This document shows positions 14,788 through 33,247 of a stretch of 64,000 nt of DNA, one piece after another (within the stretch, counting starts at the first letter, position 1; each line of letters starts with the position of its first letter). The notes under the pieces were generated by a model that saw only the letters and a list, made by a program, of their open reading frames with translations, made no database searches and was not told the origin of the DNA. Both the position numbers and the translations under genes were made by a program. This DNA is from Planctomycetaceae bacterium (GTDB lineage Bacteria; Planctomycetota; Planctomycetia; Planctomycetales; Planctomycetaceae), in NCBI GenBank assembly GCA_018699955.1, contig JABISG010000154.1, positions 1 through 64,000 on the forward strand. The letters run 5' to 3'.

Positions 14788-14872
14788 GATGTTGGCCTTG
14801 TTTGTGACTGGGAAAGGTAGACCCGCCTCCCGCCGGTTGCCGGTTTCGAAGATCATAACATCCTTATCATTT

Positions 14873-14897
14873 CGGCCGGCACAGCACGGCCCTACAC
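14873..14897 (-). repeat. Fragment of the GTGTAGGGCCG module
   Basis: Reverse complement of the first 25 bp of the ~86-bp module found near 28.8, 29.0, 30.7 and 31.7 kb. Only this end is present. Confidence 0.7.
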
Positions 14898-14940
14898 ATC
14901 GCCGTTCCTACCCGACTCTGAATTGACAATCAATGAGCAA

Positions 14941-28280: not shown

Positions 28281-28664
28281 CTACTCTTCGCGTTCTTCAT
28301 GCCGCACAACTTGCCCGGCTTCGTCGTAGAAGTACCGCACGTCGTGGATTTCGCAAAGATGGCGGGGGAGATCGGCCAGCATTACCGGGACGACAACGAA
28401 TTCGGAGAGGCCAAGCGTAAAAGCGCCAACCATACCCGCACCCTGGGCCGATCCGTGATCTCGGACTTTTCCCCGGAAGCGGAAGTCTTCGTGGACGTGC
28501 TCGGCGTCCTGTCCGCTGGCAATGGGAATTCCCAAGGCTGCATGCACGTCGGCTCGGCGTTCGTAACCGCTGAGATTTCGCCCCGAACTGGCAATGGCGG
28601 CTGAAACACAGCCAGCCGAAGAAACAGCCACGCAGGCCGCGCTCATCAGAATAATGGTCCTCAT
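28281..28664 (-). CDS. Small lipoprotein of unknown function
   Basis: 127 residues with a lipoprotein signal ending in SSAGC (Cys ~19). The ATG at 28664 has a near-perfect GGAGGAG RBS, better than the longer frame from 28715. The mature protein has a hydrophobic stretch (GAGMVGAFTLGLSEFVVVPVML) and a C-terminal HDVRYFYDEAGQVVRHEE. No family was recognised. It has no clear operon partner. Confidence 0.7.
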   Translation of the reverse strand: MRTIILMSAACVAVSSAGCVSAAIASSGRNLSGYERRADVHAALGIPIASGQDAEHVHEDFRFRGKVRDHGSAQGAGMVGAFTLGLSEFVVVPVMLADLPRHLCEIHDVRYFYDEAGQVVRHEEREE

Positions 28665-28783
28665 CACGAGATTCTCCTCCTTGAGAGTCTTGAAAACCGA
28701 GCAACGGAGAAACAAGGCGAATTCGTCAGGAGGATATCACGCGATATCGGGCGGCTTTCTTGGACCGCATTAGCAGTCGCAGG

Positions 28784-28870
28784 GTGTGTAGGGCCGTGCT
28801 GTGCCGGCCGCAATTTATTTATGACGTCGCTCGTTGATCGGCGTCCAGGACACCTGGACCTACCGTCACT
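28784..28870 (+). repeat. GTGTAGGGCCG module (A1) of the mosaic repeat
   Basis: ~86-bp module containing GGCCG/CGGCC and GTCCAGG-ACA-CCTGGAC palindromes. It is followed directly by the core element at 28878-29014. Confidence 0.85.
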
Positions 28871-28877
28871 TGGGAAA

Positions 28878-29014
28878 CGTCATTCCCGCGCAGGCGGGAA
28901 TCCAGTCGGTCCGCGGACAACCGTGCGGCGCGTGTTGGGGGGGGCGTAGGTATGTCGATGATTGTTTTGTGTTATTTGCCGGCTTGCTGGATTCCCGCCT
29001 GCGCGGGAATGACG
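28878..29014. repeat. dRS3-like bounded core element, copy A
   Basis: CGTC + ATTCCC-N8-GGGAAT at 28882-28901, an inner ~89 bp, then the inverted arm ATTCCC-N8-GGGAAT at 28991-29010 + GACG. Copies B and C are at 30497-30632 and 31551-31686. Confidence 0.88.
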
Positions 29015-29098
29015 GTGGGTGGCGGTGCTGTACCGGCCGCAATTTATTTATGGCGTCGCGCGTTGACCGGCGTCCGGGACACCCGGACCTACGCCACT
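29015..29098 (+). repeat. GTGTAGGGCCG module (A2)
   Basis: Diverged second copy flanking core A on the right. It overlaps the last ~17 codons of the minus-strand gene ending at 29048. Confidence 0.8.
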
Positions 29099-30388
29099 CC
29101 GTCGGCAGAACCACCCCAGAATGAACGTCAGCAAGCAGGCCAACCCACCGTACCACCACCACCAATGAGGGGCAGTGGATAAATTGTCGTTTGTGTGCTG
29201 AGACAAATTGCCTTTTGTATGCTGAATGAACGAATTATCCAAAGTATTGCTATGCAGAATGATGGGTTTCCCATCCTCGTACGAATCGTTGACTTCTATG
29301 TTTGTATTCTTCAATGTGTTGCCAACGAACGTTGTGTTCCCACCGCCGATTTGAATCCGCGTTGGTTGTTCAGGATCTTTGGCCTCCACGGTGTTTCCGA
29401 TGACGGTCTGCATCTGGCCACGCAAGTCCATGGCAAGGGCACACTCTCCTCCGAAATCTACGATCAGCACGTTTCCGTTGATTACGTGCCGTTGAGAATC
29501 GGACCACGTTCGGAAGCCAATTCCGAGTTTCCCTCCCTCCCCAACGTGAACGATGTTGCCCAACATCTGAATGGAATCTCCGATGTCGGACCCGATGGCC
29601 ACGTGAGTTTGTTCGGTGATCTTCACATAGTTCCCACGAATGATGCCGGGGCCTACCAGCAATTCGACGGAGTCAGCACCAACGTTACCCAGTACATTGT
29701 CAAGAACGCGGATATCTGAGCCGACCAACATGATGCCAAGCTGATGCGCATTGTGGACTTCACAGTTCTGAACTGTGATGTGCTGTAAGACTTCAGCAGT
29801 CGCCCCGCGAGGGTCACGACAATACGCTTTGATGCCACAGAATTCGAAACGGTCGTGAGCGATTTTGGGGTCGCCTTTACCTTCGCTGTTTTCTCGACGG
29901 TTGGCATCGACGAAGAGATCTCGGACGGTCACATGTTGTACACCCGACCCGATAATGCGAATGACATTCGTATTTTGGTGCAGTGCGAGAATCAACTTCG
30001 TGGCCGGTCCCTGGCCAGCAAGAATCACATTACTGCGTTCTATCAACACCCCCCCCCGCTTGCCGTCAATTTTGCGGATATCGTACGTTCCCTCCGCAAG
30101 CCGAACGGTGCCGCCCGGCTGTGGCAAGGCGGCGATCGCGGCGTTGATTTCTTCCTGGTCCCCAGTGCCATCGCCGACAAAATCTGCCGAGTCCTTCGCG
30201 CGCTGGCTGGAATTCTTGGTCGCTACCGTAATCGTGGCCTTGTGGTGAACTTCGCTTGATTGCGATTCGATTTGGGCCGCTTGAACGTGTGGATGGCAGA
30301 CCAGAGCAAGAGACAACATCGATAGCCAGATCCGCGATCTGAACCGACGTCCAAATCCCAACGCATCAAGCCTAAAAAGCACGACCAT
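29048..30388 (-). CDS. Secreted right-handed beta-helix (pectate-lyase-superfamily-like) protein
   Basis: 446 residues. A long N-terminal export signal (RIWLSMLSLALVCHPHVQA) is followed by FVGDGTGDQEEINAAIAALPQPGG and VRLAEGTYDI, the opening of pectate-lyase-superfamily beta-helices. Repeated coils follow (HITVQNCEVHNAHQLGI, VLDNVLGN, MLGNIVHVGEGG, VIGNTVEAKD, FVGNTLKNTNIEV). A C-terminal hydrophobic segment after WWWWYGG with following arginines suggests a membrane anchor. The final ~17 residues and the stop come from repeat module A2, so the gene end was altered by insertion. The ATG at 30388 is preferred to a TTG at 30427. Enzyme activity is not certain. Confidence 0.75.
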   Translation of the reverse strand: MVVLFRLDALGFGRRFRSRIWLSMLSLALVCHPHVQAAQIESQSSEVHHKATITVATKNSSQRAKDSADFVGDGTGDQEEINAAIAALPQPGGTVRLAEGTYDIRKIDGKRGGVLIERSNVILAGQGPATKLILALHQNTNVIRIIGSGVQHVTVRDLFVDANRRENSEGKGDPKIAHDRFEFCGIKAYCRDPRGATAEVLQHITVQNCEVHNAHQLGIMLVGSDIRVLDNVLGNVGADSVELLVGPGIIRGNYVKITEQTHVAIGSDIGDSIQMLGNIVHVGEGGKLGIGFRTWSDSQRHVINGNVLIVDFGGECALAMDLRGQMQTVIGNTVEAKDPEQPTRIQIGGGNTTFVGNTLKNTNIEVNDSYEDGKPIILHSNTLDNSFIQHTKGNLSQHTNDNLSTAPHWWWWYGGLACLLTFILGWFCRRSGVGPGVPDAGQRATP

Positions 30389-30496
30389 TTCGATCAATCC
30401 GCGCAAGAGAAATTCGACGCCCACCAAACCGTCGTGATACTCTTACATCCCGAATTTTTATGCAACAGCAAGTCAGTAACGTAGCCACTTGGAAAA

Positions 30497-30632
30497 CGTC
30501 ATTCCCGCGCAGGCGGGAATCCAGTCGGTTCGCGGACAACTGTGCGGCGCGTGTTGGGGTGGCGTAGGTATGTCGATCGTTGTCTTGCGTTATTTGCCGG
30601 CTCGCTGGATTCCCGCCTGCGCGGGAAAGACG
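30497..30632. repeat. dRS3-like bounded core element, copy B
   Basis: Arms at 30501-30520 (ATTCCC-N8-GGGAAT) and 30609-30628 (last base changed, GGGAAA). The inner sequence is nearly the same as copy A. Confidence 0.88.
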
Positions 30633-30645
30633 AGTAGGACCGGTG

Positions 30646-30731
30646 GTGTGTAGGGCCGTGCTGTGCCGGCCGCAATCTATTTATGACGTCGCTCGTTAAT
30701 CGGCGTCCGGGACACCCGGACCCACGTCACT
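30646..30731 (+). repeat. GTGTAGGGCCG module (B)
   Basis: Follows core B after 13 bp and ends 25 bp before the stop of the minus-strand LRR gene. Confidence 0.85.
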
Positions 30732-30755
30732 GTATTGCATGAAGGTGCAAGAACA

Positions 30756-31427
30756 TCAATTGGATTTGCGGCGAATCAGGCAATCGGGTAACGCGGCCTG
30801 CAATTTTGCCACGCCCTCGTCGCTGACTTTGGCACCCGAGAGGTAGAGTTTTTCCAAGTTAGACAGCCCTTCGAGATGCTCCAGTCCGGCGTCGGTGACA
30901 TTCGTGTTTTCGAGACCGAGACTCTTCACATTGTCCAAATGTTTGAGATGCACCAGCCCCGCGTCAGTGACTGCGGTTTGGGAGAAGTCCAATTTCTGCA
31001 GCTTCGTGAACCCTTTGAGATGTTCCAGGCCGGCATCGGTGACATTGGTACTGCCGAGATACAGAAGCGTCAAATTGACCAGACCTTTCAGATGCGGCAG
31101 CCCGGCGTCGCTAACCTCGGTTTCGGTGAGGTCCAACTCCTGCATTTCCGTCAGTCCTTTAATATGCACCAGCCCGTCATCGGTGATACCTGTTCTGGAG
31201 AGACCCAGATCGCTCAACTTGGGAAACTCCTTGAGATAGACCAGTTCGGCATCGGTGACTTCGGTCTCGGAAAAGTCTACGCGGAACACATGACCTTCAT
31301 CGCGCTCAATGAAGCCACCCGATTCCTCGATTTCCGCAACCGCCACATCCGTTGGATCGCCCGAACCACACCCCATGACGGCCAACAGCAACACAACGAA
31401 GGAAAAAAATCTCACACCAGCGTTCAT
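30756..31427 (-). CDS. Leucine-rich-repeat lipoprotein
   Basis: 223 residues. The lipoprotein signal ends in LLAVMGC. About seven LRRs of ~24 residues follow the pattern VTDAGLxHLKGLxxLxxLxLSxT, a type common in planctomycete proteins. The C-terminal cap VSDEGVAKLQAALPDCLI is conserved in these proteins. Probably anchored to the outer or cytoplasmic membrane as a binding scaffold; no ligand is known. It is a close relative of the 33.2-kb gene and separated from it only by mosaic repeats. Confidence 0.85.
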   Translation of the reverse strand: MNAGVRFFSFVVLLLAVMGCGSGDPTDVAVAEIEESGGFIERDEGHVFRVDFSETEVTDAELVYLKEFPKLSDLGLSRTGITDDGLVHIKGLTEMQELDLTETEVSDAGLPHLKGLVNLTLLYLGSTNVTDAGLEHLKGFTKLQKLDFSQTAVTDAGLVHLKHLDNVKSLGLENTNVTDAGLEHLEGLSNLEKLYLSGAKVSDEGVAKLQAALPDCLIRRKSN

Positions 31428-31550
31428 TGGGTTTCCTTGGGGCAGAAGAATAAGGCGTCCCGGGAAGGAACATCGGGAAGGGAAAGGTATCAGCAGGTGC
31501 AGGGGGTGTCAAAGCGCAGCGCCGAAGCACGTCCATTCCCGCGCACCTTA

Positions 31551-31686
31551 CGTCATTCCCGCGCAGGCGGGAATCCAGGCGGCTCGCGGACAACCGTGCG
31601 GCGCGTGTTGGGGGGGCGTAGGTAGGTCGATGGTTGTTTTGTGTTATTTGCCGGCTCGCTGGATTCCCGCCTGCGCGGGAAAGACG
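31551..31686. repeat. dRS3-like bounded core element, copy C
   Basis: Arms at 31555-31574 and 31663-31682. A truncated extra left arm (CATTCCCGCGCACC) sits just upstream at ~31533-31546. Confidence 0.88.
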
Positions 31687-31772
31687 GTGTGTAGGGCCGT
31701 GCTGTGCCGGCCGCAATTCATTTATGACGTCGCTCGTTGATCGTCGTCCGGGACACCCGGACCTACGTCACT
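31687..31772 (+). repeat. GTGTAGGGCCG module (C)
   Basis: Directly follows core C. Its CTACGTCACT end contains the reverse-strand TAG stop of the LRR gene ending at 31763. Confidence 0.85.
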
Positions 31773-33247
31773 GGCTCATTGGGTTGATTTGGTCGGAATT
31801 CGCGACTTGGTATGGGGATGCGCGTGGCCCAAATTGTTCTGCCACGAAAGTAGTGATTTGGCAGGGCTGCCTTTAGTTCGTCCATCCCTTTGTCCGTAAT
31901 CAGGGTGTCTGACAGATCGAGATCGACGTCCATCGCCAGACGCTTGAGATGGGGCAGTCCGGCATCTGTAACTTGTGTCTTCGACAATACCAGGCCACAA
32001 AACTCGTTCAACATGTCAGGTTCCACCGGTCCGAATTCAATGTCAGTGATTGGCCATTCGGCGAGGATTGCTAATCCGGCGTCAGTGATCCGTGTGTTAT
32101 GAAGATTAAGACATGGCAGCCCTTGGATGTTAATAAGTCCGGCGTCACTGATTTCAGTTCCGGCAAGACTCAGGTCTACCAGATTCGTCATCTCTTTGAG
32201 ATGCAACAAGCCGGCGTCAGTAATTTGAGTGTCGGCGACATCGAGCCGACGCAAATCAGCCAGTGCACCGAGATATACCAGTCCGTCATTTGTAAGTTGT
32301 GTCCCGGAGAGGTTCAACTCGGAAATCATGGCGAGGTCTTGTAGATGTACCAAGCCGGCATCCGTAATCCGGGTTGCGGAGAGATCGAGAAGGCCCAAGT
32401 CCGTCAGTGCCTTTAGGTGCGCTATTCCGCTATCAGTGAGCTGTGTACCCGAGAGGTTTAGGTTGAATATCTTGCCGAGGCTTTGGAGGTGCATCAGCCC
32501 GGCATCGGTGAACTGTGTATTGGATACGTTCAATGTGTCCAACCAGATCAGCTTTTTGAGATGCACGAGCCCAACACCAGTGACCTGAGTGTCTGCTAAA
32601 TCCAGCCTTTCCAAAAAAGCCAGCTCTTTGAGATTCTCAAGTCCGGTGTCGGTGATGCTTGTGCCAGAGAGATCGAGCGTGTCTAGATATGTCAGCCACT
32701 CAATATGCCCCAGCCCAGCGTCTGTGATTTCTGTGCAGGAGAGATCCAGTAAACGCAACTTAAACAAGCGGCTGAGAGACGCCATGTCGGCATCAGTGGT
32801 CTTGGTATTGAAGACACTTAGACTTTCCAAATAGATCAGCCCTTTGAGATGCGCAAGCCCACTCCCAGTGACGTTGGTGTCAGAGATGTCCAGGCTCCTC
32901 AAACTGATCAACTCATCGAGATGCTCCAGACCGGCGTCTGTGATTTCTGTCTTGTGCAGATTGAGCCGTTTTAGATTCGTGAATTCTGTAAGATGTGCCA
33001 GTTCTTCATCTGTCACTCGCGTACCGGCGAGGCTGACATAGTCGACAGCACGATCGTGGCGTCTCCGAACAATCCCCCCCAGCGCCTTGATTGCAACAAC
33101 GGCTTCGCTCTCTATTTGAATTGGCTTCTTCGATTTGTTCACTCGTTCTTGCGTTGTGCGTGTCGCGGCCTCATCAGACTGTTCGCCACCCGAGCCGCAA
33201 CCGACCAGGATTACCACAATCGCAAAGCATCTAATGTCAACGCTCAT
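31763..33247 (-). CDS. Large leucine-rich-repeat lipoprotein
   Basis: 494 residues with a lipoprotein signal (FAIVVILVGC). About 16 LRRs carry the repeated pattern ITDAGLxHLxxLxxLxxLxLSxTxL. The tail PITDIEFGPVEPDM and KGMDELKAALPNHYF forms a cap like that of the 30.8-kb gene. The ATG at 33247 follows GAGGG, so it is chosen over a start ten residues earlier. The stop codon lies in the mosaic-repeat module at 31687-31772. Role unknown; a surface protein-protein interaction scaffold is likely. Confidence 0.85.
   Translation of the reverse strand: MSVDIRCFAIVVILVGCGSGGEQSDEAATRTTQERVNKSKKPIQIESEAVVAIKALGGIVRRRHDRAVDYVSLAGTRVTDEELAHLTEFTNLKRLNLHKTEITDAGLEHLDELISLRSLDISDTNVTGSGLAHLKGLIYLESLSVFNTKTTDADMASLSRLFKLRLLDLSCTEITDAGLGHIEWLTYLDTLDLSGTSITDTGLENLKELAFLERLDLADTQVTGVGLVHLKKLIWLDTLNVSNTQFTDAGLMHLQSLGKIFNLNLSGTQLTDSGIAHLKALTDLGLLDLSATRITDAGLVHLQDLAMISELNLSGTQLTNDGLVYLGALADLRRLDVADTQITDAGLLHLKEMTNLVDLSLAGTEISDAGLINIQGLPCLNLHNTRITDAGLAILAEWPITDIEFGPVEPDMLNEFCGLVLSKTQVTDAGLPHLKRLAMDVDLDLSDTLITDKGMDELKAALPNHYFRGRTIWATRIPIPSREFRPNQPNEPVT

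Follow-up and report, generated by a model that had tools for sequence, protein, structure and literature searches.

Introduction

CGTC-tagged REPs were described in 2013 by Di Nocera, De Gregorio and Rocco, who placed dRS3 among them as CGTC-1 and reported no associated transposase (PMC3733652). Under their definition a CGTC-1 unit has an unpaired 5' CGTC, TGTC or CCTC tag, an 8-bp stem with A or T at its first two positions, a 4-nt loop and a CCA tail, and REPs were found mainly downstream of genes; five phyla are given for the CGTC REPs, Planctomycetota not among them, while the abstract has both super-families reaching Planctomycetes (PMC3733652). Rickettsia palindromic elements belong to this class too, RPE-6 as a CGTC-1 member and RPE-4 as a CGTC-4 member (PMC3733652). 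In Neisseria, dRS3 is the target of the Nf1 prophage, and almost 700 units are present, often in arrays of 200-2700 bp, with RS-like cores of 30-160 bp between inverted units and with mosaic joins (NIMEs; PMC3898611). REPINs and BIMEs, which are known together with GTAG REPs and RAYTs, have two inverted hairpins, an outward tag, conserved ends and a variable middle (PMC3116915, PMC2817692).

Here we link a mosaic repeat from a planctomycete to dRS3 through exact sequence identity and extend CGTC-1 repeats across Planctomycetota, where they form bursts of more than 100 copies in some genomes and are absent from most. New are the planctomycete range, the contrast in identity between ends and cores, the compensation within stems and the lack of target-site duplication at 100 pairs. 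Also new is the finding that no Y1/RAYT or IS110 gene is flanked by units, together with the existence of CGTC-bearing genomes that have no detectable Y1 gene and, in some cases, no IS110 gene either.

Three CGTC-1 hairpin pairs in the window

The window is a 64,000-nucleotide stretch of a Planctomycetaceae bacterium contig (GCA_018699955.1, JABISG010000154.1, positions 1 to 64,000). The initial annotation had described in it three core elements of about 136 bp with inverted ATTCCC-N8-GGGAAT ends. All three are present. Each measures 134-135 bp and consists of two CGTC-1 REP hairpins placed head to head, but only four units out of six fit the strict pattern, as B and C read ATTCCCGCCTGCGCGGGAAA at their right ends. 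The pairs and their units are as follows.

28879..29013, + strand: copy A, CGTC-1 head-to-head dimer, 135 bp, two perfect hairpins (RNA fold -86.4 kcal/mol, z -8.7)
28882..28901, + strand: dRS3/CGTC-1 palindrome ATTCCCGCGCAGGCGGGAAT, left unit of copy A (pattern match)
28991..29010, - strand: dRS3/CGTC-1 palindrome, inverted partner in copy A (pattern match)
30498..30631, + strand: copy B, CGTC-1 head-to-head dimer, 134 bp, right unit GGGAAA (RNA fold z -7.2)
30501..30520, + strand: dRS3/CGTC-1 palindrome, left unit of copy B (pattern match)
30609..30628, - strand: inverted partner in copy B, imperfect, ATTCCCGCCTGCGCGGGAAA (read from sequence)
31552..31685, + strand: copy C, CGTC-1 head-to-head dimer, 134 bp, right unit GGGAAA (RNA fold z -6.5)
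31555..31574, + strand: dRS3/CGTC-1 palindrome, left unit of copy C (pattern match)
31663..31682, - strand: inverted partner in copy C, imperfect, ATTCCCGCCTGCGCGGGAAA (read from sequence)

The ATTCCC-N8-GGGAAT pattern occurs exactly four times in the window, compared with zero times in 100 dinucleotide shuffles. Each pair is laid out as [C]GTC-ATTCCCGC-GCAG-GCGGGAAT-CCAG, a core of 80 nt and the inverted partner, the hairpin itself being CGTC-ATTCCCGC-GCAG-GCGGGAAT-CCA. The window units thus have the 8-bp stem (opening A-T, T-A), 4-nt loop and CCA tail of the CGTC-1 REP family, which they also resemble in being mostly head-to-head and in having no transposase (PMC3733652); they differ from it in that the planctomycete dimer has a fixed 80-nt core in 26 copies and is joined to a GTAG pair in the window. 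A match of the long hairpin to MIR8622 (Rfam) was sub-threshold (35 bits, where the gathering score is 197) and was set aside as chance.

The GTAG module

As the initial annotation had it, each core is joined to one or two modules of about 86 bp: copy A lies between two of them, and B and C are each joined to a single one. A fragment also lies elsewhere in the window.

28783..28870, + strand: GTAG-type inverted REP pair, left of copy A (sequence comparison)
29012..29099, + strand: GTAG-type module right of copy A, left head degraded (GTGGGTGG), overlapping the 3' end of the - strand ORF 29048-30427
30645..30732, + strand: GTAG-type module right of copy B, joined to the dimer by AGTAGGACCGGT (sequence comparison)
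31686..31773, + strand: GTAG-type module right of copy C (RNA fold z -2.4)
14869..14917, - strand: lone GTAG-module fragment, one REP arm

The module is 86-88 bp long and consists of two inverted GTAG-tagged hairpins, GTAG-GTCCGGG-TGT-CCCGGAC in one arm and GTAG-GGCCG...CGGCC in the other, which is itself the REPIN/BIME form (PMC3116915, PMC2817692). About nine matches to one module arm were found in the genome; no CGTC pair lies beside the copies on contigs C104, C49, C172 and C66, and the module is therefore a separate repeat of the other (GTAG) REP super-family. The C172 copy is fully symmetrical, and the AGTAGGACCGGT junction also precedes the dimer-free copy on C104. Core and full module are joined only in the three window copies, and these composites follow three successive - strand ORFs: the ORF followed by copy A (29048-30427) has no Pfam hit, those followed by B and C are LRR genes, and B and C flank one of two neighbouring LRR genes. 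When the flanks of five Y1 genes were read by eye for a cognate RAYT, no GTAG module was noticed (assembly about 95% complete).

Conserved ends around an unconserved core

In the genome surveyed (7.1 Mb, 173 contigs, 95% complete), exact ATTCCCGC-N4-GCGGGAAT palindromes number 45, while the reversed control pattern gave 0. Using copy B as the query, we recovered 26 pairs with the same core, so that the family extends well beyond the three window copies; the first refuting condition of the initial annotation, a genome with these three copies only, does not hold. The genome also contains pairs built on different cores, at least six in number (C134 carries three, C135 two and C76 one), which brings the total to at least 32 dimers; single units occur as well. 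An autonomous parent was sought between the closely spaced pairs on C134 and C76, where only ordinary reading frames were found. In contrast to the arrays of dRS3/NIME, the 45 exact palindromes here mostly form isolated pairs, with no prophage use shown.

Across the 25 of 26 copies that were aligned, the length from GTC to GAC is nearly always 134 bp (range 124-135), and similarity ends sharply at GTC/GAC, the flanks mostly diverging. Just outside GTC, 83 of 100 dimers have a C at one end and 84 at the other. At 117 loci in other genomes, neighbouring units form 103 pairs, of which 69 are tag-outward; the core of the planctomycete pair had no match in these 117 loci or in the loci compared from a relative in the same family (G050).

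Identity over 300 copy pairs is 95.6% for the ends and 73.6% for the cores, and the stem pairs are nearly invariant in the 25 copies, the first pair excepted. Among the units at all loci collected, 279 agree with the stem consensus, 29 depart from it at one position and 58 at two. Of the doubly changed units, 47 are compensated where about 1.3 would be expected; these 47 are related copies spread over 38 loci, not 47 independent events. Structure is thus kept in CGTC-1 ends, besides letters. Template-switch repair of imperfect palindromes could add to the compensation, and end conservation and compensation together could also be explained by selection on an RNA hairpin, by recombination between units or by template-switch repair of quasi-palindromes.

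Identity with dRS3 and distribution

The boundary that had been called dRS3-like turned out to be dRS3 itself, letter for letter. Two chromosome-sized N. gonorrhoeae records contain 100% matches to a 29-mer that includes the window unit, 16 in one and 15 in the other, and PMC3898611 quotes an Nf1-targeted dRS3 subtype, ATTCCCRCCTRCGCGGRAAK, which the unit fits. Besides this identical 28-29-nt unit, the RS-like core between inverted units and the mosaic joins are common to both. Judged by its sequence, the planctomycete element is a CGTC-1 member of the published class, and CGTC-1 is its correct family name. The wider class proposed by the initial annotation does exist, and the mosaic non-autonomous reading is supported, but the class is not new, the CGTC REPs having been named in 2013 (PMC3733652).

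The exact 28-mer was found in at least 117 stretches among the matches listed, from Pseudomonadota, Planctomycetota, Chloroflexota (Dehalococcoidia), Desulfobacterota, Bdellovibrionota, Nitrospinota, Fibrobacterota and others; many of these records are metagenome bins, and single ones may be contaminants. Within Planctomycetota, 37 of 392 genomes have any unit, with 0-247 copies per genome; several have 118-247 strict units, among them a complete chromosome with 140, and such counts show that these are genuine families. Any unit was present in 6 of 99 sampled genomes among the nearest relatives of the window genome. The relative G050 has 71 exact palindromes, and those read are singletons of the same unit, not pairs.

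Copy number also varies between species of one planctomycete genus: G110 (syqfu) has 140 strict units, and its congener G613 a single copy at a contig end. The pairs of G110 (L113, L327-L333) are about 82 bp long and combine one ATTCCC/GGGAAT unit with one compensated ACTCCC/GGGAGT unit. A genome titled Arthrobacter sp. TPD3018 (G106, L079/L102), with 98 units, groups with Sphingomonas, and its name is probably wrong.

Insertion sites and turnover

All 25 pairs examined with a simple, rough codon-usage gene caller are intergenic, unlike the Rickettsia RPE-6/RPE-4 repeats, some of which lie inside reading frames. The pairs often lie within 100 bp of a gene end. Where both neighbouring genes were called, 8 of 23 pairs lie between convergent genes and 5 between divergent genes; for comparison, 7 of the 45 pairs of adjacent genes in the window are convergent. 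The core element is a head-to-head pair of CGTC-1 (dRS3) hairpins around an unconserved 80-nt core, dispersed between genes and, in the window, mosaic with a GTAG pair.

Direct repeats of 3-9 nt, as a target-site duplication would leave, are not enriched at the edges of 100 dimers from many genomes, and no flanking palindromes were found at 100 head-to-head pairs, as expected for single-strand, not DDE, transposition. The pairs differ in this from a MITE of a DDE transposon, whose target-site duplication they lack.

Short extra flanks are common to some copies. One of them, the 37-bp flank E1, is found to the left of the core three times and to its right four times, the same end of E1 always abutting the unit; no E1 copy without a pair was found. 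We infer from this arrangement that the core has probably been inverted between identical ends. A longer flank is common to seven copies, and at least half of the 25 copies have no long common flank. No empty site was found, the only same-genus comparison (planctomycetes G110 and G613) having given no alignable sites.

The interval downstream of dnaN (the gene named from its translated end) holds CGTC-1 pairs in four Sphingomonas species and a different CGTC-tagged pair (GTCATTGCGAGC...) in two others, one of which also has a third type. This pattern shows turnover between related species, without a clean empty site. At the Sphingomonas loci L267-L272 (relatives of G124; about 2110-2350), hairpin pairs of the ATTCCCGC, ATTGCGAGC and GCCCCGGACTTG types lie downstream of dnaN, differing from species to species.

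Discussion

We favour, with a probability of about 0.55, the reading that the pair is a non-autonomous REPIN-like element whose folded single strand is recognised in trans by an enzyme that has been lost or is of an unrecognised type. The pair would then be a present or recent mobile element, with the folded hairpin and its unpaired CGTC tag recognised on single-stranded DNA; recognition of hairpin and tag only would leave the ends constrained and let the core drift. The enzyme would not be the product of a flanking Y1/RAYT gene and would either have been lost from these genomes or belong to an unrecognised type. Weighing against this reading, no insertion event was caught and no enzyme emerged from the searches. 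After insertion near the 3' ends of genes, copies would persist as very stable hairpins, and recombination between identical ends would give rise to inverted cores and mosaics. The core pair departs from the REPINs and BIMEs in its tag, which is CGTC where theirs is GTAG, and in having no REPtron; our searches found no RAYT with either repeat at its flanks.

Tentatively, one widespread enzyme that is neither Y1 nor IS110, or a host pathway, may multiply the same 28-nt hairpin in trans in planctomycetes, Neisseria, Sphingomonas and Chloroflexota. We hold this broader proposal to be rather doubtful; if true, a single enzyme or pathway would explain the letter-perfect conservation across phyla without a linked gene. 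The question of what multiplies CGTC repeats is sharpened by these results, and the constrained hairpin, the free core, the lack of target duplication and the copy-rich genomes with neither Y1 nor IS110 detected make the missing enzyme testable.

It is also conceivable, if unlikely, that the pairs are kept for a host role, as stable 3'-UTR RNA hairpins that end transcription or protect mRNA ends. The RNA folds of the window pairs reach -80 to -86 kcal/mol (z about -6.5 to -8.7, + strand), and the compensatory stem changes, the intergenic sites close to gene ends with their convergent bias, and the position of REPs mostly downstream of genes (PMC3733652) all agree with such a role. However, no U-rich tail follows the pairs, a terminator scan of 28500-32000 has no CGTC hairpin, and the copies between divergent genes do not fit. 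An RNA role would also leave the 28-letter identity across phyla, loop and tail included, and the patchy distribution unexplained.

Mobilisation in trans by a Y1 (IS200/IS605-type) transposase, RAYT or other, encoded elsewhere in the genome seems distinctly unlikely. In its favour, the units have the REPIN architecture of 5' unpaired tetranucleotide tag, hairpin and inverted pairs, and a PF01797 search detected at least one Y1 gene in 21 of 28 CGTC-bearing genomes. Against it, no CGTC unit lies near the 5 Y1 genes of this genome or the 10 of a relative, and the tyrosine transposase that had been suggested to use the ends did not emerge from 61 Y1 loci (202 kb) of unit-bearing genomes, where 1 strict unit lies within about 1.5 kb and 3.45 would be expected. 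The remaining seven genomes had no PF01797 match, among them the isolate drafts of Sphingomonas endophytica, Silvimonas terrae and Pseudomonas ullengensis (45-55 units) and one genome with 98 units; these genomes weaken the Y1 reading, with the limits that a strongly diverged Y1 gene could escape PF01797 and that drafts may be incomplete. Sphingomonas endophytica and Silvimonas terrae are CGTC-rich isolates suited as test organisms.

The five Y1 genes of this genome (G000; contigs C103, C21, C135 and C110; L016-L020) each have their own, differing terminal repeats, and the one on C135 is enclosed by a GTAGCCCGGCC hairpin pair. At the one Y1 gene with a unit beside it (G130, C68), the unit lies beyond the terminal repeats of that gene; with a count below expectation, it was rejected as coincidence.

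Still less probable is an origin without transposition, by segmental duplication and homologous recombination between intergenic regions. The window composites have core and full module in common, B and C sit around one LRR gene, and seven copies have the longer flank. A single tandem gene duplication, the second refuting condition of the initial annotation, may partly explain the local composites, core and full module being joined only there. For the family it is ruled out by 26 copies on many contigs with mostly unrelated flanks. The copies without a long common flank, the end of similarity at GTC/GAC, the different gene preceding copy A and the recurrence of the 28-mer in distant phyla likewise stand against duplication.

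That IS110/Piv-type recombinases or filamentous-phage integrases target and spread the units is barely credible and mostly refuted as a general engine: the fit of the window unit to the Nf1 prophage target (PMC3898611) suggests it, but being a target does not multiply the target, no IS110-type (DEDD) match was found in this genome, the gene is absent from 11 of 20 unit-bearing genomes (this one and 10 of 19 others), no full unit lies within 1.5 kb of IS110 at 30 loci, and phage and plasmid records contain hardly any units, leaving no sign of the phage integrase that had also been suggested. Some genomes without a detectable Y1 gene also lack IS110.

Five plasmid records match the unit, two of them being chromosome-sized N. 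gonorrhoeae records, and one phage record has a near-full match. The phage is Microcystis phage MaAM05 (MW495066.1), in which 16 places match the CGTC unit and which possibly contains bacterial sequence. The two N. gonorrhoeae records filed as plasmids (NZ_CP119140.1 and NZ_CP119142.1), of 2.17 Mb, look like whole chromosomes.
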